Shown here: in pieces, positions 14,759-61,494 of the stretch
Position numbering within the stretch: the first letter of the stretch is position 1
Layout: each line of letters starts with the position of its first letter
Assembly: GCF_900110945.1 (NCBI RefSeq)
Contig: NZ_FOFL01000001.1
Location: forward strand, 310,001 to 374,000
Source of the DNA: Devosia sp. YR412
GTDB lineage: Bacteria > Pseudomonadota > Alphaproteobacteria > Rhizobiales > Devosiaceae
Length of the DNA stretch: 64,000 bases
Reading direction: 5' to 3'
Notes under the pieces: generated by a model
Seen by the model: only the letters and a program-made list of their open reading frames with translations
Told to the model about the DNA's origin: nothing
Database searches by the model: none
Made by a program: the position numbers and the translations under genes

Positions 14759-14886
14759 TACCCTCTCCCCTGGGGGGAGAGGGAAGGGTGAGGGGTTCAG
14801 GGCTGGGTTGCGGCAAAGTGCTTTCGCCGGCCTCCGAACCCCTCACCCGACCCTTCGGGTCGACCTCTCCCCTCAAGGGAGAGGTG
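14759..14886. repeat. G/C palindromic intergenic repeat, convergent gap
   Basis: Left end CCCTCTCCCCTGGGGGGAG continuing into GGGTGAGGGGTTC; right part GAACCCCTCACCCGACCC then a GGGTCGACC turn and CTCTCCCCTCAAGGGAGAGG. The arms are imperfect inverted copies with smaller hairpins inside. It fills the space between a plus-strand and a minus-strand gene end and can serve as a bidirectional terminator. Related elements occur at 28451, 36287, 52240, 53687 and 59735-60253. Confidence 0.75.
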
Positions 14887-28450: not shown

Positions 28451-28568
28451 ATACCCCCACCTAGCCTCCCCCTGAAAAGGGGGAGGAATCTGGCCGGTGG
28501 CTGTCGCAAATAGTGCCACAAGCTGGATATGCTCCTCCCCTTATCAGGGGAAGGTTGGGTGGGGGTAT
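28451..28568. repeat. Palindromic intergenic repeat, convergent gap
   Basis: Ends ATACCCCCACC and GGTGGGGGTAT in mirror-complement, with inner hairpins CCTCCCCCTGAAAAGGGGGAGG and CTCCCCTTATCAGGGGAAG. It occupies the gap between uup (plus) and the LacI gene (minus) and can terminate both. Very similar in outline to the element at 36287. Confidence 0.82.
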
Positions 28569-36286: not shown

Positions 36287-36406
36287 ATACCCCCACCTAG
36301 CCTCCCCCTGATAAGGGGAGGAATCTCATCGAGATATTGGCGCTATTTTGCCAAACACACCGGCCGAATTCCTCCCCCTTTTCAGGGGGAGGTTAGGAGG
36401 GGTTAT
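36287..36406. repeat. Palindromic intergenic repeat, convergent gap
   Basis: ATACCCCCACCTAGCCTCCC continuing to TGATAAGGGGAGGAATC at the left; GAATTCCTCCCCCTTTTCAG then GGGGAGGTTAGGAGGGGTTAT at the right. Same plan as the element at 28451 (ATACCCCC outer ends, CTCCCCCT...AGGGGGAG hairpins). It lies between converging genes, ending 2 bases before the aldo/keto reductase stop. Confidence 0.82.
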
Positions 36407-51543: not shown

Positions 51544-52227
51544 ATGAAATCCCAGAGCGACATCCTGCGCCTTGCGCCCTTCGAGGCCGTCATTTTCGAC
51601 ATGGACGGCACCCTGCTCGATACGGAGAGCGTGTTCAAAACCATCGTCTTCGAGGTCTGCACCGAGCTGGGCTTCGAAATGACCGACGCCGTGCATATGT
51701 CGATGGTCGGCGGCAGCCACGAAAACACCAATCGGCTGCTGCTCGAATCCTATGGTGTGAGCTTTCCCTATACTTTGTTCGACGAGCGCTGCCGCGTCAT
51801 CATGCGCGAACGCAGCCATGGCGGCGTGCCGGTCAAGCCCGGGGCACTGGAACTGGTCCGGGAACTCAACGAGCGCAAGATCCCGACGGCGGTGGCGACC
51901 TCGTCGCGCAATCCGCATGCCCAGCATCACCTGACGGCGGCGGGCCTGTTCGACCTGTTCGAAACCATTGTCACCCGCGACGATGTGGTCAATCCCAAGC
52001 CGCATCCCGAGCCTTACCTCACGGCGGCGCGCCGGCTGGGCGTCGATCCGCTGAAATGCCTGGCGCTGGAAGACAGCCATGCCGGCGTGCGGGCGGCCCA
52101 TGCCGCCGGCATGCAGACGGTGATGGTGCCGGACCTGGTGCATCCGAGCGAAGAAATTCGCGCGCTGGGCATTGCCGTGATGGAAAGCCTCGATCACGTG
52201 CGGCTGGCGGCGTTCGATCGGCACTGA
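51544..52227 (+). CDS. HAD-superfamily hydrolase (beta-phosphoglucomutase type)
   Basis: 227 residues. DxDGT motif FDMDGTLLDTES (residues 19-30), a capping helix region, TSSRNPHAQHHL (motif II Thr/Ser) and KPHPEPYLTAAR with ALEDSHAGVRAAHAAGM (motifs III/IV). It dephosphorylates small sugar phosphates or acts as a phosphoglucomutase; substrate not evident. Divergent from selO; ATG after a short GGG. Confidence 0.9.
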   Translation: MKSQSDILRLAPFEAVIFDMDGTLLDTESVFKTIVFEVCTELGFEMTDAVHMSMVGGSHENTNRLLLESYGVSFPYTLFDERCRVIMRERSHGGVPVKPGALELVRELNERKIPTAVATSSRNPHAQHHLTAAGLFDLFETIVTRDDVVNPKPHPEPYLTAARRLGVDPLKCLALEDSHAGVRAAHAAGMQTVMVPDLVHPSEEIRALGIAVMESLDHVRLAAFDRH

Positions 52228-52239
52228 GGCTGCTGCGCC

Positions 52240-52353
52240 ATCCCCACCCGACCCTTCGGGGCCACCCTCCCCACAAGGGGAGGGATAAGAAGCATCGAGT
52301 TCGCTGGACGCGGACTTCCCTCTCCTTGATGGGGAGGGATTGAGGGTGGGGTG
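52240..52353. repeat. G/C palindromic intergenic repeat
   Basis: Left part CATCCCCACCCGACCCTTCG then GGGCCACCCTCCCCACAAGG with its own GGGGAGGGAT closing; right part TCCCTCTCCTTGATGGGGAG followed by GGATTGAGGGTGGGGTG. Outer ends CCCCACCC / GGGTGGGG are complementary. Closest relative is the element at 60130-60253. It follows the HAD gene; the next gene runs in the same direction. Confidence 0.8.
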
Positions 52354-52513
52354 AAGCCCCAAGCACCAGACATCGCGTCTTGCCAACACCTCTCCACAAC
52401 AATCCCAACCAACCCCCGCGTTAATCCATAAACTTTTAGCGTCGCGCTGAAGGCTTGCTTCACTACGCCTCAAGTCCATAAAATTATTGGGTTTTCTTCC
52501 GGCACTACGTAGA

Positions 52514-52529
52514 TTAACCCTAACTTAAC
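52514..52529. promoter_or_regulatory. CtrA box TTAA-N7-TTAAC
   Basis: TTAA (52514-52517), CCCTAAC, TTAA (52525-52528): the exact spacing of the CtrA site of Alphaproteobacteria, with another GTTAAG at 52545. It stands 97 bases before the cell-wall hydrolase start. Confidence 0.6.
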
Positions 52530-52624
52530 AAGCTAACGGCTATGGTTAAGTAGTCGTAAATTCCGGCTTCCCACGTTGCGCTCCCTTGGATAGGGTGCAG
52601 CCGGAAGTGACGAAGGACCTGGGC

Positions 52625-53587
52625 ATGCAGGTCCGGACGAAGACCCGCCGGATATGGCCGGACGGGTTCAGGGGTAAGGACGGGGCATTGGGGCAGAGCT
52701 GGCGGAATAGTGCTGTGCGTGCGGTTTCGCATGTGCTTGCCTTCGGAGCGCTCGCGCTCGTTTTGTTCATCACGCTCGTTCCTGCCCACGCCCAGACGCT
52801 TCGCGTCGCCGATGTCACCCCGCTTCAGGTTCCCGCCGATCTCGCTACCCTGCGCGCCCAGCCGGCCATTGGCCCGACCGTGGTCGGTGTTGCCCCCGGC
52901 CAGCAGCCGCTGACCCCCGCTCTGCTTGCTAATTATGTCGCGCGCCAGAACGAGCTGCGCGCCGTCGACGTGCTGGGCCTGCAGGTGCCAGACGAGCTGA
53001 CCTCGGACGTGCTGATGGGCTACATCGCCCGCGGCTCGATCAACGACAACAGCGCCGTCTCGGCCATTGCCAGCTTCACCAGCCCGACCCGTCGCCCCGA
53101 GCCGGCGCTCAATACCTCGATGCTCGCTGCTTACGTCGAAACCAGCTACCAGCCGCTCGAACAGCGCCTGCAGCATGCCGATGCCGAGCGCGATTGCCTG
53201 GCACAGGCCATCTATCACGAGGCCCGCGGCGAGAGCGAAGCCGGCCAGCTGGCGGTGGCCAATGTCATTGTCAACCGCGCCCGTTCCGGCAAATTCCCGG
53301 CAACGCTCTGCGGCGTGATCTACCAGAATGCCGACAAGGGCTTCCACCGCTGCCAGTTCACCTTCGCCTGCGACGGCCGTACCGACGCACCGGGCGAACG
53401 CCGCGCCTGGGCCCGCTCGGCTGACCTGGCGCAGTCGGTCTATGCCGAATTCGCCCTGGGCGAACAGGTTGGCGCCGTGCCGGGCTCGGCGCTCTACTAC
53501 CACACGACCAATGTGAGCCCCTCCTGGTCGAACACCTACAATGCCGTGGCCGAAATCGGCTCGCATATCTTCTACGCGCCGAACTGA
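52625..53587 (+). CDS. Cell wall hydrolase (Hydrolase_2 / SleB type)
   Basis: 320 residues from the ATG at 52625 (AGGA upstream). N-terminal membrane anchor or signal (VRAVSHVLAFGALALVLFIT, then LVPAHAQ), a variable region to about residue 170, then the Hydrolase_2 domain: ERDCLAQAIYHEARGESEAG (catalytic Glu), NVIVNRARS, GVIYQNADKGFHRCQFTFAC, and GSALYYHTT. It cleaves peptidoglycan glycan strands. A CtrA site upstream suggests cell-cycle timing. The leader also has an 8-base stem TTCCGGCT (52561) / AGCCGGAA (52599). Confidence 0.88.
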   Translation: MQVRTKTRRIWPDGFRGKDGALGQSWRNSAVRAVSHVLAFGALALVLFITLVPAHAQTLRVADVTPLQVPADLATLRAQPAIGPTVVGVAPGQQPLTPALLANYVARQNELRAVDVLGLQVPDELTSDVLMGYIARGSINDNSAVSAIASFTSPTRRPEPALNTSMLAAYVETSYQPLEQRLQHADAERDCLAQAIYHEARGESEAGQLAVANVIVNRARSGKFPATLCGVIYQNADKGFHRCQFTFACDGRTDAPGERRAWARSADLAQSVYAEFALGEQVGAVPGSALYYHTTNVSPSWSNTYNAVAEIGSHIFYAPN

Positions 53588-53686
53588 GGCGCTGAACTTT
53601 CCGACATTGTGATGTGATGAGGCGCCTGGGGTTTGCTTCGGGTTGCAGGGGCGTGTGTGCGGGGTAGTGACAGCTTCGGTGCAAGC

Positions 53687-53825
53687 GGCTCCCCCTCCAC
53701 CGCCCTATGGGCGGTCCCCCTCCCCCGCAAGCGGGAGAGGATTCCTGACTGCGGGCACAGATGATTGGGGTGGCTTCCTCTCCCGTTACGGGAGAGGGGG
53801 ACCAAGCATAGCGTGGTGGAGAGCG
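53687..53825. repeat. G/C palindromic intergenic repeat, convergent gap
   Basis: GCGGCTCCCCCTCCACCGCC then CTATGGGCGGTCCCCCTCCC at left; CCTCTCCCGTTACGGGAGAG then GGGGACC and GTGGTGGAGAGC at right; arms are partly complementary, with small hairpins inside. It separates the cell-wall hydrolase from pckA. Confidence 0.7.
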
Positions 53826-53859
53826 GCGCCACGCGTGCTGTTCTTGCCGAGGCTCAAAT

Positions 53860-53884
53860 GAAAAAGGGCGCCTCGCAGCGCCCC
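53860..53884 (-). terminator. Terminator of pckA
   Basis: On the minus strand GGGCGC, loop TGCGAG, GCGCCC, then TTTTT; starts 5 bases after the pckA stop. Confidence 0.85.
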
Positions 53885-53888
53885 TTCG

Positions 53889-55481
53889 TTATTCCGCGGC
53901 CTGCGCCATCCTTGGCCCGGGCGCCGCGTTCGCCGCATCGCCGAATTTCTCGAAATTGGCGCGGAACAGGCCGGCGAGGTGCAGGGCCTGCCTGTCATAG
54001 GCTTCGGCATCGGCCCAGGTCTGGCGCGGCGTCAGCAGCTTGCTATCGACGCCGGGGACGGCGAGCGGCACTTCGAAACCGAACAGCTCGTCCACCCGCA
54101 TTTCGGCATTGTCGAGCGAGCCATCCAGCGCTGCGGTGAGCAGGCGGCGGGTGGAGGCGATGTCGATGCGCTTGCCGACGCCATAGCCGCCGCCGGTCCA
54201 GCCGGTGTTGATCAGCCAGGCGGTAGCGCCGCTGGTTTGCAGCTTGTCGGCCAGCATGTCGCCATAGACCGTGGGGTGCAGCGGCATGAAGGGGGCGCCG
54301 AAGCAGGCCGAGAAGGTGGCCTGCGGTTCGGTGACGCCGCGTTCGGTGCCGGCCACCTTGGCGGTATAGCCGGAAAGGAAGTGATAGACGGCTTGTTCGG
54401 GTGTCAGGCGCGCGACCGGCGGCAGGACGCCGAAGGCATCGGCGGTGAGGAAGACCACAGTTTTGGGCGTGCCGCCGACGCTGCCCTTGGCAATGGCCGG
54501 CAGCACATGGATCGGGTAAGCCGCGCGGGTATTTTCGGTCAGTGAGACGTCGTCGAACTCGGGCACGCGCGCGCCATCGAGCACGACATTCTCCAAGACC
54601 GTGCCGAAGCGCTTGGTGGCGGCAAAGATTTCGGGCTCGGCTTCCGGGCTGAGCTTGATGGTCTTGGCATAGCAACCGCCTTCGAGATTGAAGACGCCAT
54701 CCGCGCTCCAGCCATGTTCGTCATCGCCGATCAGTGGGCGATCGGGATCGTTGGAGAGAGTGGTCTTGCCGGTCCCCGAGAGGCCAAAGAACAGGGCGGC
54801 TTCGCCATCCTTCCCAAGATTGGCCGAGCAATGCATCGGCAGCACGCCCTGGCGTGGGGCGTGGAAATTGAAAAGCGAGAACACCGACTTCTTGATTTCA
54901 CCGGCATAGAGCGTGCCGGCGACGACGACGATGTTGCGGCTCATGTCGAGCGCGATCAGCGTCTCGCTGCGGCCGCCGTGGCGGGCCGGGTCGGCCTTGA
55001 AGCGCGGGGCATGGACGATGGTGACGGGCGTCGCGCCGCTACCGGCCTCTATGCCTTCGCCGGGACGAATAAGCAGGTTGCGGATGAACAGGGCATGCCA
55101 GGCGCTGGGGGTCAGGACGGTGACGCCATACTGGTGGCGCGGATCGGCGCCCGCGAGCAGGTCCTGCCGGAAGGCGGCGACGCCACCAAAGGAGGCCACG
55201 GCATCCTCGAGCAGCAGGTCGAACTGGGCCGGGCTGATGGCGCCCGCATTATCCCACCAGACGCTGTTTTCGGTCAGCCCGTCACGGACGATGAACTTGT
55301 CTTTCGGCGAGCGGCCGGTGAACTGTCCGGTGCGCACGCTGACGGCGCCATCGACGGTCAGCTCTGCTTCCTCACCCTGCACGGAGCGTGCAACCAGCAC
55401 GGGCGCGATGTCGTTGAGCGACAGCGAGCCGGCCCGGGCGGCAATCTGGCTCCTGAGGGTCTCATGGTCGAACTGGGTCAT
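53889..55481 (-). CDS. pckA: Phosphoenolpyruvate carboxykinase (ATP)
   Basis: 530 residues from the ATG at 55481 (GGAG 8 bases upstream). [41 protein letters not shown]-loop [18 protein letters not shown], and [20 protein letters not shown] are the ATP-type PEPCK signatures. It converts oxaloacetate and ATP into PEP and CO2, the entry step of gluconeogenesis. Divergent from chvI over 235 bases, the classic Rhizobiales order, so ChvI control of pckA is possible. Confidence 0.95.
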
Positions 55482-55716
55482 CGCAATCACTCCGTCGCAT
55501 GCGCGGCCAAGGTGCCGCCTGCTGTGGAGTTGAAAATAGAGTGCGAATTCGTGCCTCAACCATCCCGAAATCGGTCGTAAGACTGAAGTCGCATCGCGTC
55601 GCAACAGCGCACCGCCCTTGGCCGCGCCTTATTTAATGCGTATTTGTCCCCTGCAAGCGTAGTTCACGGCCAATAGTGCCGCCTGTTTGCAAGCGTCCGA
55701 ACAAGAAAGGCAGCCC

Positions 55717-56433
55717 ATGCCAAAAATCGCTCTGGTCGATGACGACCGTAATATTCTCACTTCCGTGTCGCTGACGCTGGAGGCCGAAGGATATCAGGTC
55801 GCCACCTATACCGATGGTGCCTCGGGCCTTGAGGGCCTGACCACGGACAAGCCCGACCTGGCTATTCTCGACATCAAGATGCCCCGCATGGACGGCATGG
55901 AACTGCTGCGCCGCCTGCGCCAGAAGTCCGATGTGCCGGTGATTTTCCTGACGTCCAAGGACGAGGAAATCGACGAGCTGTTCGGCCTCAAGATGGGCGC
56001 CGATGATTTCATCACCAAGCCGTTCAGCCAGCGCCTGCTGGTTGAGCGCGTCAAGGCGATCCTGCGCCGCTCCGCCCCGCGCGATCCTTCGGCTCCCGCT
56101 GGTGCGCCGGGCGAACCCGGCACGGGCAAGGCGCTGATCGAGCGCGGCTCGCTGGTGATGGACGAAGAGCGCCATACCTGCACCTGGAAGGGCCAGCGCG
56201 TCACGCTGACCGTCACCGAATTTCTGATCCTCCAGGCGCTGGCTTTGCGGCCCGGCGTGGTCAAGTCGCGCAATGCCCTGATGGATGCGGCCTATGACGA
56301 TCAGGTCTATGTCGACGATCGCACCATCGACAGCCACATCAAGCGGCTGCGCAAGAAGTTCAAGGCGACCGACGACGACTTCGAGATGATCGAGACGCTG
56401 TATGGCGTCGGCTATCGCTTCAAGGAGCAATAG
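55717..56433 (+). CDS. chvI: Two-component response regulator ChvI
   Basis: 238 residues. Receiver domain with [20 protein letters not shown], phospho-acceptor Asp in [13 protein letters not shown] (near residue 52), [12 protein letters not shown], and an OmpR-type winged HTH C-terminus ([20 protein letters not shown]). AAAGG before the ATG at 55717. It answers to ChvG and controls envelope, acid and carbon genes. The next gene is 8 bases away. Confidence 0.94.
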
Positions 56434-56441
56434 GCGCGAAA

Positions 56442-58253
56442 GTGGCCATTCTCGATCCGGATCAGGCATCCCAGCCCGACGCAGACCAGCAATGGCGCGC
56501 GCCGGGGGCGGACACGGCCGTCCCTGAGCCGGAGACCCTGAGCAAAGCCAATCGCTGGCGGCTTCTCTTGGCGCCCTTCTACAAGCTGTCCAATGCCGTG
56601 GTGCGGTTCCTCAACTTCACCATTTTCTCCAGCCTGACCCAGCGCATCATCGTGCTCAATCTGGCGGGTCTCCTGGTGCTGGTGGTGGGCATCCTCTACC
56701 TCAACCAGTGGCGCGCCGGTCTGATCGATGCCCGCGTGCAATCACTGCGCGTGCAGGGCGAAATCATCGCCGCCGCCATCGCCGCTTCGGCGACGGTGGA
56801 TAGCGACGTCATTTCGATCAACCCTGACCGCCTGCTGCAGTTGCAGGGCGATGGCACGGTGTCGTCGTTGAGCTATTTCGATCCGACGCTGGAATTTCCG
56901 ATCAATCCGGAGCGGGTGGCGCCCCTCTTGCGCAACCTGATCACCCCGACCCGTACCCGCGCCCGCATCTATGATCAGGGTGGGCTGATGATCCTCGATA
57001 GCGACAATATCTATGCGCGCGGCGAGGTGATGCGGACCATTATCGAGACCAAGCGCGACGACTTCTTCCTGTGGAACTGGTGGAACGCCGTGCTGAGCTG
57101 GGTGCCTGGCGATAATTTCCCGAAATACCAGGAATATGGTGTCGACGAAGGCGCCCGCTATCCTGAGGTGGCGTCGGCGCTGAGCGGCGCGCCGGCGGAT
57201 TTCGTGCGCGTCGATGCGCAGAACCAATTGGTGGTGTCGGTGGCCGTGCCGGTGCAGCGGCTTCGGGCCGTGGTAGGCGCCATCCTGCTGTCGACCGCGC
57301 CGGGCGATATCGATTCCGTGGTGGCGCAGGAGCGCTGGAGCATTCTGCGCATCGCCATGATCGCGGCGGGCGTGCAGATCGCGCTGTCGCTTTTGATGGC
57401 CGGCACCATTGCCGGACCGATGCGGCGCCTGTCGGAAGCCGCCGAACGGGTGCAGACCGCCGGCAATGCGCGCGCCGAAATTCCCGACTTCACCGATCGG
57501 CCCGACGAGATCGGTCATCTGAGCGGCGCTTTGCGGCGCATGACCGACGCGCTCTACAACCGCATCGAGGCCATCGAGCGCTTTGCCGCCGACGTGGCGC
57601 ATGAGCTGAAAAACCCGCTGACCTCGCTGCGCAGCGCGGTGGAGACTTTGCCGTTGGCCAAGCGCCAGGAGGACAAGGACCGGCTCAACGACATTATCCA
57701 GCACGACGTCAAACGCCTCGACCGGCTGATCACCGATATTTCCAGCGCCAGCCGGCTCGATGCCGAACTGGCGCGAGAGGGTTCGGAGCGTGTAGATGTG
57801 GAGAAGCTGGCCGAGGCAATGGTGTCGATCCAGAAGGACATGGCGCTGGGGCGCGGCGTGACCGTCGTCATGGACAAGCGCGCCGGCAAGGGCGCTGCGG
57901 TAATCAATGGCCACGAAAGCCGGCTGGCCCAGGTGTTCGCCAATCTAATCGACAATGCGGTGAGCTTTTCGCCCGAGGGCGGCGTGGTGCGCGTGGCGCT
58001 ATCGACCGACCCTGAGCAGATCGTCGTTACAGTGACCGACGAGGGCCCCGGCATTACCGGCGATTTCGGCAAGATTTTCCAGCGCTTCTACACCGACCGT
58101 CCCGACAGCGAGAGCTTTGGCGACCACTCGGGGCTGGGGCTCTCCATCTCCAAGCAAATTGTTGATGCGCATAAGGGAACCATCAAGGGTGGTAACCGTA
58201 CAGACCGCTCCGGCGCGGTGTTTACGATTGTCTTGCCGCGCGCCCGCAAATAG
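56442..58253 (+). CDS. chvG: Sensor histidine kinase ChvG
   Basis: 603 residues, GTG start. Cytoplasmic N-terminus, membrane helix around 70-95, large periplasmic sensor, second helix around 300-325, HAMP, H-box FAADVAHELKNPLTSLRSAV (His phospho-site), and the ATPase domain with NLIDNAVSFSP, DEGPGITGDFGKIFQRFYTD and HSGLGLSISK. Partner of ChvI; known in relatives to sense acid and envelope stress together with ExoR. Confidence 0.94.
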   Translation: MAILDPDQASQPDADQQWRAPGADTAVPEPETLSKANRWRLLLAPFYKLSNAVVRFLNFTIFSSLTQRIIVLNLAGLLVLVVGILYLNQWRAGLIDARVQSLRVQGEIIAAAIAASATVDSDVISINPDRLLQLQGDGTVSSLSYFDPTLEFPINPERVAPLLRNLITPTRTRARIYDQGGLMILDSDNIYARGEVMRTIIETKRDDFFLWNWWNAVLSWVPGDNFPKYQEYGVDEGARYPEVASALSGAPADFVRVDAQNQLVVSVAVPVQRLRAVVGAILLSTAPGDIDSVVAQERWSILRIAMIAAGVQIALSLLMAGTIAGPMRRLSEAAERVQTAGNARAEIPDFTDRPDEIGHLSGALRRMTDALYNRIEAIERFAADVAHELKNPLTSLRSAVETLPLAKRQEDKDRLNDIIQHDVKRLDRLITDISSASRLDAELAREGSERVDVEKLAEAMVSIQKDMALGRGVTVVMDKRAGKGAAVINGHESRLAQVFANLIDNAVSFSPEGGVVRVALSTDPEQIVVTVTDEGPGITGDFGKIFQRFYTDRPDSESFGDHSGLGLSISKQIVDAHKGTIKGGNRTDRSGAVFTIVLPRARK

Positions 58254-58262
58254 ATTGGCGGC

Positions 58263-58733
58263 ATGAGCAAGCCAATCAACGTGCATGGAACGGGGCTTCT
58301 TCTGGGCGACACCGGAATTTTGCTGCGTGGGCCTTCGGGTGCGGGCAAATCGGTTCTGGCCATGACTTTGCTGGATCGCTGGGAGGGCAGGGGCCTGCCG
58401 GCCTTCCTCGTTTCCGACGATCGGGTCGATCTGCAGCTCGCTGGCGGTCAACTCACCATGCTGGCGCCGGATCGCCTGGCCGGGCTGATCGAATTGCGCG
58501 GGCGCGGGATCGTCAGCCGGCCACATAGAAGTCCGGTCCCGCTGCATCTCGTCATCGATCTGGTGCCCGATTTGGTGCGCATGCTGGAGGAAGACCAGAT
58601 GGTGACGGAACTGGCTGGAACCAGCGTGGCGCGGGCGCCGGTGCCCTATGGCGACGTCATCAGCCTGGGTCACCAGATGCTGCTGGTGATCGAGGCGATT
58701 TCGGCATTGTCGCGCTCTTCCACGGTACCGTGA
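58263..58733 (+). CDS. hprK: HPr kinase/phosphorylase, short alphaproteobacterial form
   Basis: 156 residues, much shorter than the Firmicute enzyme (~310) because the N-terminal domain is missing. P-loop LRGPSGAGKSVLAMTLLDRW, VSDDRVDLQLAGGQLTM, and ELRGRGIVSRPHRSPVP are intact. It phosphorylates HPr on Ser. It is 9 bases after chvG, so carbon and envelope control are transcriptionally linked. Confidence 0.92.
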   Translation: MSKPINVHGTGLLLGDTGILLRGPSGAGKSVLAMTLLDRWEGRGLPAFLVSDDRVDLQLAGGQLTMLAPDRLAGLIELRGRGIVSRPHRSPVPLHLVIDLVPDLVRMLEEDQMVTELAGTSVARAPVPYGDVISLGHQMLLVIEAISALSRSSTVP

Positions 58734-58911
58734 CAAAAAACCACTTGAATCCCAGCGGCTACGAGCCGAAAATGGCCCATGCTCGTCCTTCTGGGCCGGG
58801 TTCGGGTTCACTTTGCTGGCGCTTCGCCGGCCGGGTGGACAGGGGGCAGAATTTGCTGGAATGCCGTGGGCGCCGCTGTGGTGGCGTGGCTCGGCAGGCT
58901 GGGGACGTTGC

Positions 58912-59313
58912 ATGATTGGTCTGGTTCTGGTGACGCATGGTGCGCTTGCCAATGAATTCAAGTCGGCTCTCGAGCATGTCGTGGGGCCGCAGGATTTCTG
59001 CGAAACCATCGCCATCGGTCCCGATGACAATATGGAAAACCGCCGCAACGACATCCTGGCTGCTGTCGACCGCGCCGACGACGGCGCCGGCGTCATCATC
59101 CTGACCGACATGTTCGGTGGCACCCCCTCCAATCTCGCCATTTCCGTGATGCAGAACCGCGAGGTTGAAGTCATCGCCGGGGTGAACCTGCCGATGCTGG
59201 TCAAGCTCGGCCGGGTGCGCAGCGACATGGCGATCAAGGATGCGGTGAACCTGGCACAGGAAGCGGGGCGGAAGTACATCACCGTCGCCAATTCCATCCT
59301 GGGTGCGGGTTAA
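58912..59313 (+). CDS. PTS EIIA, mannose family
   Basis: 133 residues from MIGLVLVTHGALANEFKSAL; the His in THG is the phospho-site. IILTDMFGGTPSNLAISVMQ is typical of the EIIA-Man fold. No EIIB/EIIC is near, so it serves in regulation, receiving phosphate from HPr. GGGGA before the ATG; an upstream in-frame start at 58813 is improbable. Confidence 0.92.
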   Translation: MIGLVLVTHGALANEFKSALEHVVGPQDFCETIAIGPDDNMENRRNDILAAVDRADDGAGVIILTDMFGGTPSNLAISVMQNREVEVIAGVNLPMLVKLGRVRSDMAIKDAVNLAQEAGRKYITVANSILGAG

Positions 59314-59371
59314 GCATGGCTCCGAAAAGTGCGACGCGGTTTTCGGTTAAAGCCATGCGGGGTTCTGTTTG

Positions 59372-59680
59372 ATGGACGGGACCGGCGCCGGCCGGGCAGT
59401 TGCCCAGCAACTGACCATCGTCAACCGCAAGGGCCTGCACGCCCGCGCCTCGGCCCGCTTCGTGCGCACGGCCGAATGCTTTGACGCCACTGTTTCCGTC
59501 ATCAAGGACGGCTCGTCGGTCAATGGCAATTCCATCATGGGTCTGATGATGCTCGGCGCCGGCCCCGGCTCGACCATCCTGGTACAAGCCAGCGGCAAGC
59601 AGGCCCGCGAGGCGCTGGAAGCGATCGTCGAGCTGGTGAACAACGGCTTTGACGAGGATAGCGACGGGGTTGCGGGGTAG
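59372..59680 (+). CDS. ptsH: Phosphocarrier protein HPr
   Basis: 102 residues with about 10 extra residues before LTIVNRKGLHARASARFVRT, where His is the EI phospho-site; NGNSIMGLMMLGAGPGS contains the Ser target of HprK. It belongs to the incomplete PTS phosphorelay. ATG at 59372 is preferred over TTG at 59369. Confidence 0.92.
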   Translation: MDGTGAGRAVAQQLTIVNRKGLHARASARFVRTAECFDATVSVIKDGSSVNGNSIMGLMMLGAGPGSTILVQASGKQAREALEAIVELVNNGFDEDSDGVAG

Positions 59681-59734
59681 GGCCTCGTAACCTGAAACGC
59701 CTTGGTGACTGGATGTATTCCGTGCACAGGGCGG

Positions 59735-59773
59735 CCTCCCCTCCCCCTTGTGGGGAGGGATTGAGGTTGGGGT
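59735..59773. repeat. Half repeat leading into the DUF559 gene
   Basis: GCCTCCCCTCCCCCTTGTGG followed by GGAGGGATTGAGGTTGGGGT corresponds to the right half of the 52240 element (GATTGAGGGTGGGGT). Its last base abuts the ATG of the DUF559 gene, and GAGGTT lies 7 bases before it as a possible ribosome-binding site. Confidence 0.75.
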
Positions 59774-60124
59774 ATGAGCGTCGAACGGGCACGCCAGCTT
59801 CGCAAGATCATGCCAGCGCCAGAAGCAAAACTCTGGAATGCATTGCGCGCCCTCAAGCCGCTTCATCACCACTTTCGTCGGCAAGTTCCGTTTGGGCATT
59901 ACATTGCCGACTTCGCCTGTCATCGCGCCAGGCTCATCATCGAAGTGGATGGCGATACGCATTTCTCCGACGCTGGGCAAAAGCACGACAGGGTTCGTGA
60001 TGCCTTTCTATCGGCCGAAGGTTATCGAGTGCTGCGCGTCACCAATCTGGATGTTATGCGGAATATCGATGGGGTGATTGAAGTCGTTCTTGCGGCGCTC
60101 GAACAAGCGTCATCCCCGAGATAG
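59774..60124 (+). CDS. DUF559 endonuclease-like protein
   Basis: 116 residues. MSVERARQLRKIMPAPEAKL WNALR-type start, HHFRRQVPFGHYIADFACHR, LIIEVDGDTHFSDAGQKHDR and LSAEGYRVLRVTNLDVMRNI: the D...E-x-D-G core is typical of the Vsr/PD-(D/E)XK-like DUF559 fold. Catalytic role is inferred to be a nuclease. It lies exactly between a half repeat and a full palindromic repeat of the CTCCCC family, separate from the PTS genes before it. Confidence 0.88.
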   Translation: MSVERARQLRKIMPAPEAKLWNALRALKPLHHHFRRQVPFGHYIADFACHRARLIIEVDGDTHFSDAGQKHDRVRDAFLSAEGYRVLRVTNLDVMRNIDGVIEVVLAALEQASSPR

Positions 60125-60129
60125 TGCGC

Positions 60130-60253
60130 AACCCTCCCCCCACCCGCCCCCTTCGGGGCCACCCTCCCCACAAGAAGGAGGGATGAGCAAGAGCCGAGGC
60201 ACCGAGCGTCGGCTTCCCTCCCCTTAATGGGGAGCGATTAGGGGTGGGGGGAT
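60130..60253. repeat. Full palindromic repeat after the DUF559 gene
   Basis: Begins 6 bases after the DUF559 stop. AACCCTCCCCCCACCCGCCC then CTTCGGGGCCACCCTCCCCA at left, and TTCCCTCCCCTTAATGGGGA then GCGATTAGGGGTGGGGGG at right; aligned over its length with the element at 52240, including CTTCGGGGCCACCCTCCCCACAAG. Confidence 0.82.
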
Positions 60254-60480
60254 GGCTAGGCGCCGGGCCGAAAGTAAACAAACCCTTTCCACAAACGCCT
60301 CGACCATCCCCCTCAGCTCATGGCTCCCTTGAACCGCTGGGGGTGGATCATGACAGGGATCGGCGCGACCATGGCGCCATTCCTTAGGGGATGAGCGGGG
60401 AGCCAGCGTCAGTCCTGGGGCTCCCTTGATGGCCGGTCGCGTGCTTTGCCGCGGCCGTGCGGGCCGTGACAGGGACGATT

Positions 60481-61494
60481 ATGGCGAAATGGTTTGGAGC
60501 AAGGCGCGGCCGCGGGCGGTCGTTGCTGCTAGGTGTTGTCGGCTTTTTGCTGTGCGGTCCCGTCGGCATGGCGCAGGGCCTGCCAGACCTGAGCGATGCG
60601 CTGGCGCGCAACCAGCAGATACTCGCCAACCTGCCGACGGCAGCAGATCGCAGCGATCGGCTGCGCGGGGTGATCGAGGTTCCCAAAACGCCAGAGCGCT
60701 TCATGAAGGCGCTGCCGGGCATTATGTCGGGCACGCCGATCCCGGTGGCGGCGTCGCTGGCTGCCTATGACAAGCTGGGTGGCAACCAAAAACCGCGGCT
60801 CTATGACCTGTGGCTCAAGGGTCGGTCGACGCTGTTGGCCGAGCTGGGCGGTGGCGAGCGGCGCGACGTGGTCAGCACCGGCGGAGATTATCTGGTCAAT
60901 GACAGCCTGCTGCTGGGCGGCTTCGCCCAGACCGATACGCGGGCGGCGTCGCAACTGGCCGGTTGGAGCCTTGGCGGTTTCGGCACGGCGCGGCTGTCGG
61001 AGAATTTCTATCTCGACCTGCTGGGCGCCCGTGGTGGTGCCGGTTCGTGGAGCGAGGACGAGCGTGAGACTGCCAATTGGCTGATGACCACGGCCTTTTC
61101 CGGCAAATGGCAGTTCGATGAGTGGAGCTTTAGGCCGCAGGCGCGGGTGAGCTATTTTGCTGCCCATGCCCCGGCTTTGCAGGATTTGGATGGCGCCCTG
61201 GTCGAAGCGCAGCGCCGGGCGACCGGCGAGCTAGCCCTAGGCCCCAGCGTCACCTATCGGCTGGCCACGGTGGACAATGTGGTGTTCACCACCGGGCTCA
61301 AGCTCGACACGGTGACCAAGCTGTCGCTGGATGATGCGCTGGCGGTGGATGGCCTGCGCAGCGGGCTGGAGGGCACGCTCAATGTGGAACTGCCCAGCGG
61401 CACGCGCTGGAAATCCTCGTTTGGCTATCAGGGCATTGGCGGGGAGAACCGGCGCTTCGATGCCAAGGGCACGCTGACCGTGCCGCTGCGCTAG
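60481..61494 (+). CDS. Outer-membrane beta-barrel protein with signal peptide
   Basis: 337 residues from the ATG at 60481. Signal peptide: MAKWFGARRGRGRSLLLGVV then GFLLCGPVGMAQG. After a short helical stretch, the C-terminal two thirds has alternating amphipathic strands (VSTGGDYLVNDSLLLGGFAQ, GTARLSENFYLDLLGARGGA) like an autotransporter beta-domain, ending in VPLR instead of F. It may be an isolated barrel of the autotransporter type. Function unknown. Confidence 0.72.
   Translation: MAKWFGARRGRGRSLLLGVVGFLLCGPVGMAQGLPDLSDALARNQQILANLPTAADRSDRLRGVIEVPKTPERFMKALPGIMSGTPIPVAASLAAYDKLGGNQKPRLYDLWLKGRSTLLAELGGGERRDVVSTGGDYLVNDSLLLGGFAQTDTRAASQLAGWSLGGFGTARLSENFYLDLLGARGGAGSWSEDERETANWLMTTAFSGKWQFDEWSFRPQARVSYFAAHAPALQDLDGALVEAQRRATGELALGPSVTYRLATVDNVVFTTGLKLDTVTKLSLDDALAVDGLRSGLEGTLNVELPSGTRWKSSFGYQGIGGENRRFDAKGTLTVPLR

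Follow-up and report, generated by a model that had tools for sequence, protein, structure and literature searches.

The window, the whole stretch of 64,000 nucleotides analyzed here, contains a short gene of the DUF559 family (PF04480) whose neighbours are HPr and ahcY. Palindromic repeats lie on both sides of this gene, and one more copy of the same repeat is found elsewhere in the window. The features are as follows:

59774 to 60124, plus strand: DUF559 gene, a CDS of 116 aa (Pfam E=1.6e-31)
59731 to 59773, no strand assigned: upstream half repeat, a hairpin (59739-59759) followed by ATTGAGG and a G-rich head, stopping one base before the ATG
about 60132 to 60250, no strand assigned: downstream full repeat, two hairpins with heads at either end
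about 52240 to 52353, no strand assigned: gene-less copy of the full repeat, a REPIN-like inverted pair

In each repeat unit of this family, a short linker connects a hairpin (CCCTCCCC-loop-GGGGAGGG) to a G-rich head, and a full repeat is made of two units in inverted order. The hairpin upstream of the gene reads CCCTCCCC-CTTGT-GGGGAGGG, and a GAGG located at 59763-59766, 7 bases before the ATG, is a putative ribosome-binding site. The downstream full repeat runs from a C-rich head through a GC hairpin, the main hairpin (60162-60182), a spacer and a second hairpin (60215-60237) to a G-rich head. The hairpins of the gene-less copy are at 52265-52284 and 52317-52339, with the heads pointing outward. 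The three right-hand halves form one direct-repeat family (D15), with 79-84% identity to the reference copy. An earlier inspection of the bare DNA (hereafter the sequence-only reading) had described a half repeat reaching the base before the ATG, a full repeat starting 6 bases after the stop and a gene-less copy elsewhere. The half repeat and the gene-less copy were found as described; the full repeat is also present, with a gap of about 7 bases instead of 6. The neighbourhood of the gene showed no intron, intein or methylase. Among 56 predicted ORFs of the window, a set that excludes the DUF559 ORF itself because a longer antisense ORF took its place, one has hairpins on both sides and eight have them on at least one side.

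The window carries four more pairs of C-rich hairpins, which belong to other subfamilies and have no DUF559 gene (14761-14885, 28465-28553, 36300-36392 and 53717-53797). The pairs at 28465 and 36300 are among the matches to the repeat family found around the second short DUF559 gene of the genome. Diverged tandem repeats spaced by about 260-290 bases occupy approximately the first 8,400 positions and probably belong to a large repeat-rich protein. Assignment of the palindromic repeats to a known RNA family was rejected, since 52100-60600 has no match in Rfam at gathering score.

The core hairpin of the window family is present in 202 copies in the genome (3.83 Mb), against 12 for a reversed control pattern, so the repeat is not a product of chance. 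Many of the hairpins listed are paired 54 bp apart; together with the gene-less inverted pair at 52240-52353, they have the form of the non-autonomous pairs of REPIN- or MITE-like elements. Three PF04480 matches were detected in this genome. The second short DUF559 gene (L001) has palindromes on both sides, from a different family, CCTCCCCCTnnnAGGGGGAGG, counted in 52 copies against 0 for the control. The two short DUF559 genes of this genome are thus accompanied by one genome-wide family each, of 202 and 52 hairpins. The third match (L003) is a 1042-aa open frame with no adjoining repeats.

The flanking repeats display a C-rich arm, a loop, a G-rich arm, a short linker and a mirrored G-rich third block. 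This is the arrangement of the BoxC/PIT "intrastrand triplex" motifs, with which their sequence would class them by layout. According to the accessible text of the study describing them, triplex motifs were surveyed in more than 260 genomes, mark unstable sites, occur as inverted pairs and vary strongly in their loci among E. coli strains, by a mechanism that was left open (PMC4666352). The three-block layout and the inverted pairs are shared with the repeats studied here, which differ from the motif as described there in being tied to DUF559.

C-rich hairpins flank DUF559 genes in many phyla

A search with a 15-sequence alignment yielded at least 581 relatives, of which the 80 with the highest protein similarity, the sole ranking criterion, were retained. 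They come from Alphaproteobacteria, Xanthomonadales, betaproteobacteria, Chloroflexi, Clostridia, Mollicutes, Patescibacteria, Binatia and others. Nine loci with less than 260 bp on one side were dropped, and the remaining 71 were scored for a C-rich hairpin within 200 bp, along with 783 control ORFs of at least 80 aa from the same loci. A hairpin was found upstream of 60 DUF559 genes and downstream of 58, on both sides of 50 and on neither side of 3; the corresponding numbers for the controls were 43, 35, 10 and 715. At least one hairpin thus accompanies 68/71 DUF559 genes and 68/783 controls, and the enrichment for both sides (50/71 versus 10/783) gives an odds ratio of 184 (p=1e-53). These values describe the closest relatives of a repeat-flanked gene, and more distant DUF559 proteins may differ. 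When loci were sorted on record titles, at least one hairpin was present in 47/50 Alphaproteobacteria and 21/21 others. Over the 1.24 Mb of loci, 164 of the 282 C-rich hairpins lie within 260 bp of a DUF559 gene. The three genes counted as misses (L069, L100 and L122) have, by eye, long-loop or interrupted repeats. The C-rich definition replaced an earlier generic hairpin scan that was too permissive, with both sides positive in 178/783 controls. The location of the gene between repeats, as noted in the sequence-only reading, is confirmed and general; a lack of such repeats at DUF559 genes elsewhere would have refuted the idea put forward there, and the association found does not do so. One match, in Patescibacteria (L114:10001-10300), has an in-frame stop under table 11, consistent with a pseudogene or a different genetic code.

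The two flanks of a gene are mostly inverted copies of each other. Among the 50 genes with both flanks, the best similarity was 0.89 in inverted and 0.84 in direct orientation, the inverted comparison being higher in 29 and the direct one in 11; with shuffled flank partners the inverted value was 0.63, and the maximum of 300 was 0.67. The loops nearest to the gene on the two flanks were reverse-complementary in 25/50 cases and matched in direct orientation in 4/50. Of the 118 nearest hairpins, 102 have a third-strand-like head (at least 7 of 8 positions) facing the gene and 34 have one on the side away from it.

The only domains returned by a Pfam scan of the window protein were DUF559 and MTES_1575; no transposase domain, including Y1 (PF01797), was detected. 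Its AlphaFold2 model (pLDDT 80.9, pTM 0.75) and its profile point to nucleases. The profile matched 3hrl, an endonuclease-like protein of Neisseria (E=4.7e-36), and the homing endonuclease I-Bth0305I (3r3p), which was recovered both by profile (E=6.8e-5) and by structure with Foldseek (E=2.5e-4). Foldseek also retrieved Vsr (E=2.6e-2; 1cw0, 1vsr), and PvuRts1I was among the relatives. Ten positions are invariant in 78 aligned sequences, among them E17, D46, D59, H63 and D72, all present in the window protein and presumed to be catalytic. The fold and the conserved acidic and histidine residues are those of the Vsr / EDxHD PD-(D/E)XK nuclease superfamily, 3r3p being a homing endonuclease of the EDxHD kind. 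The E. coli DUF559 protein YcjD was assigned long ago to the PD-(D/E)XK superfamily, close to Vsr (PMC1189080). Besides the fold, 3r3p, annotated as "Mobile intron protein", shares with the gene studied here the behaviour of a mobile gene, whereas neither I-Bth0305I nor Vsr resembles it in being bounded by family-specific, genome-wide hairpin repeats. A role as an anti-phage defence gene was considered and rejected, the PADLOC matches being weak (best E=3.5e-5, to part of DpdF).

Repeat type, nuclease clade and copy number in Devosiaceae and beyond

The census in Devosiaceae covered 91 unique places with a short-frame DUF559 gene in 61 genomes, drawn from the 30 best loci, 60 further regions and L001-L003 after removal of three duplicates. 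None of the 91 lacks a C-rich hairpin within 200 bp; one lies upstream in 83 places, downstream in 63 and on both sides in 55. The C-terminus is itself a translated repeat (PSPDLRFAPATLSPRGRG and similar) in 22 of 32 DUF559 proteins.

Nuclease clade and repeat type are linked. When at least two DUF559 genes were sampled from one genome, the listed repeat types differed in stem or loop in every case (21/21 genomes). Protein identity predicted repeat similarity in Devosiaceae with a rho of 0.52, a value reached in 0/1000 permutations. Shuffling of repeat labels within a genome never reached it either (0/2000; mean 0.21, maximum 0.40); the repeat thus follows the nuclease and not the host. The match between clade and repeat also holds across phyla (67 loci, rho 0.32, 0/1000). 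In six genomes (L213, L217, L219, L226, L267 and L268), a pair of DUF559 genes recurs at a spacing of about 1.8 kb, and the repeat types of the two genes differ.

Copy numbers of individual families were compared between genomes with and without a matching sampled gene; only part of the DUF559 genes was sampled for these tests. The CCTTCTCC family has a median of 29 copies with such a gene versus 8.5 without (n=23 and 38, p=3.5e-4), and the difference persists after subtraction of the four copies at the gene (p=0.002). For the ACCTCTCC family, whose pattern has a fixed loop length and misses six-base loops, the medians are 7 and 6 (n=18 and 43), with p=0.06 before and 0.51 after subtraction. 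A separate genome-wide family for each gene copy, a RAYT-like trait, was found for the two genes of the YR412 genome and failed for one of two other families.

DUF559 was found in 99 of the 136 genomes searched, and the number of genes correlates with the excess of hairpins (rho 0.68), the median excess being 132 in the 99 genomes with the gene and 10 in the 37 without. Expressed per Mb for the 120 genomes at least 90% complete, the correlation is 0.64 and was reached by 0/2000 within-genus permutations. Hairpin excess is correlated with genome size as well (rho 0.58), and the contrast between genomes with and without DUF559 is not significant among the 60 genus genomes at least 95% complete, 6 of which lack the gene (p=0.15). 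Five hairpin-rich genomes (G021, G060, G053, G062 and G024, excess 408 to 60) had no DUF559 at E≤1 with profile A1, an outcome that carries little weight unless the same set includes a positive. The expectation of the sequence-only reading that repeat copies would be tied to the presence of the gene was thus borne out by a strong family-wide correlation, and went unmet in genomes of the G021 type and in one of the two family tests. As a separate observation, neither DUF559 nor a Y1 transposase was detectable in G021, G060 and G053, three genomes of the genus where the excess is 408, 207 and 156; recent loss, assembly gaps or another mover may each account for this.

Genomes of this kind would suit a model in which DUF559 is a passive passenger between repeats moved by another enzyme, or in which the hairpins are local terminators or control elements. 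We regard this as very improbable. Local elements would not be expected in 202 and 52 copies over a genome, and passengers would leave unexplained the association across phyla (both sides in 10/783 controls), the clade matching and the invariant residues of the protein. The known mover of REPs could hardly be that other enzyme: the Y1_Tnp domain is absent from the YR412 genome and from 72/75 genus genomes (present in 3/75), and RAYT or another Y1 transposase was rejected as the mover.

Empty sites, cobN cassettes and a proposed mobile element

Alleles with and without the gene were compared at several sites. G035 (L137) has HPr next to the ORF at 60457, with neither gene nor repeat between them, and the distance from the HPr stop to a conserved GTAAACAAA motif is 18 bases there versus 593 in the window. 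The sequence-only reading had suggested looking for strains lacking the gene at this site with one intact repeat left; G035 is such a strain as regards the gene, and has no repeat at that place. At the same position, G026 (L149) carries a related, broken DUF559 gene in two pieces (67 and 75% identity) bracketed by repeat units. A second empty-site pair is provided by Shinella and S. meliloti: Sinorhizobium has a unit-DUF559-unit arrangement between two adjacent operon genes, where Shinella has about ten bases (L166, L208 and L209). The Ak57 copy has an ISRm16 inside its downstream repeat unit. No target-site duplication was apparent by eye at the junctions of the Shinella/S. meliloti or G035/window pairs, whose alleles have diverged. 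In Azospirillum, all seven records with 99-100% coverage of the query have the gene, at a single shared site, and none of them provides an empty site.

The cassette was also found in frame in cobN (TIGR02257), where the repeats and the nuclease are part of one open frame. A survey of 60 CobN-bearing genus genomes returned 30 loci, 28 of them readable. Five of these 28 alleles contain repeat and DUF559 (G083, G075, G047, G050 and G023) and nine are empty. The other 14 have a shorter insert, also in frame and mostly repeat-like in appearance; a sixth cassette was seen outside the survey, in G037. The cassette copies examined outside cobN lie at various intergenic sites. The heads point outward in the cobN copies of G083 and G075, where the gene sits in the spacer of one pair, and inward in the window, which indicates that both kinds of spacer in an alternating array can house the gene. 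Large-frame DUF559 genes failed as a negative control, five of six being repeat-flanked and all five in frame in cobN (L271-L274; G075 L280); the sole one without repeats is the 1042-aa protein of L003. Palindromic repeats in frame in protein genes are also described for the Rickettsia palindromic elements (PMC10969869), to which the cobN case is likened by description, not sequence; the accessible text mentions no nuclease partner for them. Another in-frame repeat, translated HGEPVEPRGRA, occupies the same cobN loop in L278 and L298 and lies elsewhere in cobN in L272 and L274, so that in this genus cobN receives insertions of several repeat families.

DUF559 could, on the strength of its fold, be a resident Vsr-like repair enzyme that trims or resolves hairpins and limits instability rather than driving spread. 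Caulobacter VsrA, which has a DUF559 domain and a Vsr-like predicted structure, acts in a DNA-damage context, and the BoxC loci of E. coli are unstable (PMC12907096, PMC4666352). VsrA was studied, in contrast to the gene in the window, as an enzyme of the repair type, with links to cytosine methylation and to the SOS response; the accessible text of that study contains neither "palindrom" nor "hairpin", and "repeat" occurs in it twice, for the LexA box and in the growth protocol (PMC12907096). This explanation seems improbable to us: the gene is patchy (99/136 genomes), several copies with different repeats occur in one genome and a cassette lies in cobN, which is the behaviour of a selfish element rather than of a housekeeping gene.

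The main rival is a homing-type nuclease riding on repeats that something else moves. DUF559 would then be a selfish gene similar to homing endonucleases, with the repeats as landing pads: it would cut gene-less alleles or copies and be copied in by repair, while the repeats spread otherwise. A homing endonuclease catalytic domain is among the nearest relatives of known structure, the gene is found in either spacer of an array of units (inward in the window, outward in the G083 and G075 cobN), repeats also exist without the gene, and empty, repeat-only and repeat-plus-gene alleles coexist at one cobN site. Homing alone, however, leaves unexplained both the dispersal of the cassette to many non-homologous sites and the match of clades with separate genome-wide families, and we hold this possibility to be unlikely, if less so than a repair role.

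We favour a different explanation, in which a widespread selfish element is represented here by the gene together with its flanking repeats and the stand-alone DUF559 protein mobilises its own hairpin family; this is probably the case, and DUF559 is the leading candidate for what moves the repeat. Such an element would consist of a stand-alone DUF559 gene bounded by "hp-head" units, each made of a C-rich stem, a short loop, a G-rich stem and a G-rich head mirroring the stem. Gene-less pairs of units, REPIN-like as at 52240, would be non-autonomous offspring of the DUF559 cassette, and each nuclease clade would be bound to its own repeat family. The nuclease may recognize the extruded hairpin of its family, or the hairpin plus third strand, and nick or cut there; the unit might subsequently be copied or re-inserted by host replication and repair at other places, both in gaps between genes and in tolerant protein loops. 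The sequence-only reading had put forward DUF559 as the mobilising or processing nuclease of the repeats. The association, its specificity and the insertion of cassettes agree with that proposal, while for its catalytic part we infer that the protein would bind the hairpin, cut it and by this cut drive the spread. The strongest facts against a mobilising role are the repeat-rich genomes without the gene, the failed ACCTCTCC test and the fact that no cut or target duplication was observed.

The parallel with RAYT and REP, also drawn in that reading, is supported by the clade-tied repeat types, the empty sites and the in-frame cobN cassette. REP/REPIN and RAYT systems are likewise described as numerous short hairpin repeats in a genome, arranged as inverted pairs, with a small gene beside some copies, with different gene copies of one genome associated with different repeat groups, and with gene-less pairs far commoner than the gene (PMC3116915). 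The present system differs from RAYT in its enzyme, a Vsr-fold nuclease and not an HUH/Y1 protein, and in a gene that can take either spacer. REPs carry a GTAG- or CGTC-type tag, whereas the repeats here have a G-rich third-strand-like head. Read most parsimoniously, the data describe a partnership of the REPIN/RAYT kind that involves an unrelated enzyme, and in which cassettes are autonomous and gene-less pairs non-autonomous. If true, this type of partnership arose with a nuclease without a strand-joining domain, and the element sometimes inserts in frame in metabolic genes such as cobN. The chances seem to us evenly balanced that it represents a new class of mobile element, with a Vsr-fold nuclease that alone, without transposase, integrase or reverse transcriptase, moves hairpin-triplex units across many phyla and is the missing mover of BoxC/PIT. 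No paper linking DUF559 to these repeats came up in searches of the open-licence literature; the available text of the RepRanger paper has neither "RAYT" nor "transpos", and "nuclease" only within "exoribonucleases" (PMC12306157). The link offers a testable mover for a widespread class of bacterial repeats and a biological context for DUF559, a family of unknown function.

The E. coli ycjD locus

E. coli K-12 has both a DUF559 gene, ycjD, and copies of the motif, so the link is testable in this species, and ycjD would, if the proposal is true, be the laboratory-strain representative of the element class. K-12 contains 23 motif copies, no remnants of transposases or integrases are described near the motif, and the main text of that study, as far as accessible, mentions none of ycjD, sapF, DUF559, Vsr or "nuclease" (PMC4666352). 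The ycjD gene lies between sapF and fabI and is followed by BoxC motifs, two at pattern level in L206 and one plus a degraded partner in K-12 (L205). A sapF-ycjD-BoxC-fabI query was at least 80% covered in 3363 of 5426 genomes. Two alleles among the rest, without an annotated ycjD, have an efflux operon next to fabI and no motif in the fetched stretches, which for L204 comprise the fabI side only.

Two other sites were rejected as exact insertion sites. At sstT-alx (L178 versus L306 and L307), the one E. coli BoxC polymorphism with a clean alignment, loss of the sequence between two 9-bp direct repeats has reduced a BoxC pair to one hairpin, an event that needs no enzyme. At gcvP-ygfF, the BoxC-less allele lacks a larger stretch and aligns poorly. 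The sapF-fabI site itself (L169, L205 and L207) is occupied, depending on the strain, by ycjD with BoxC or by the efflux operon, the latter also described for a ycjD-less allele (PMC12817139).
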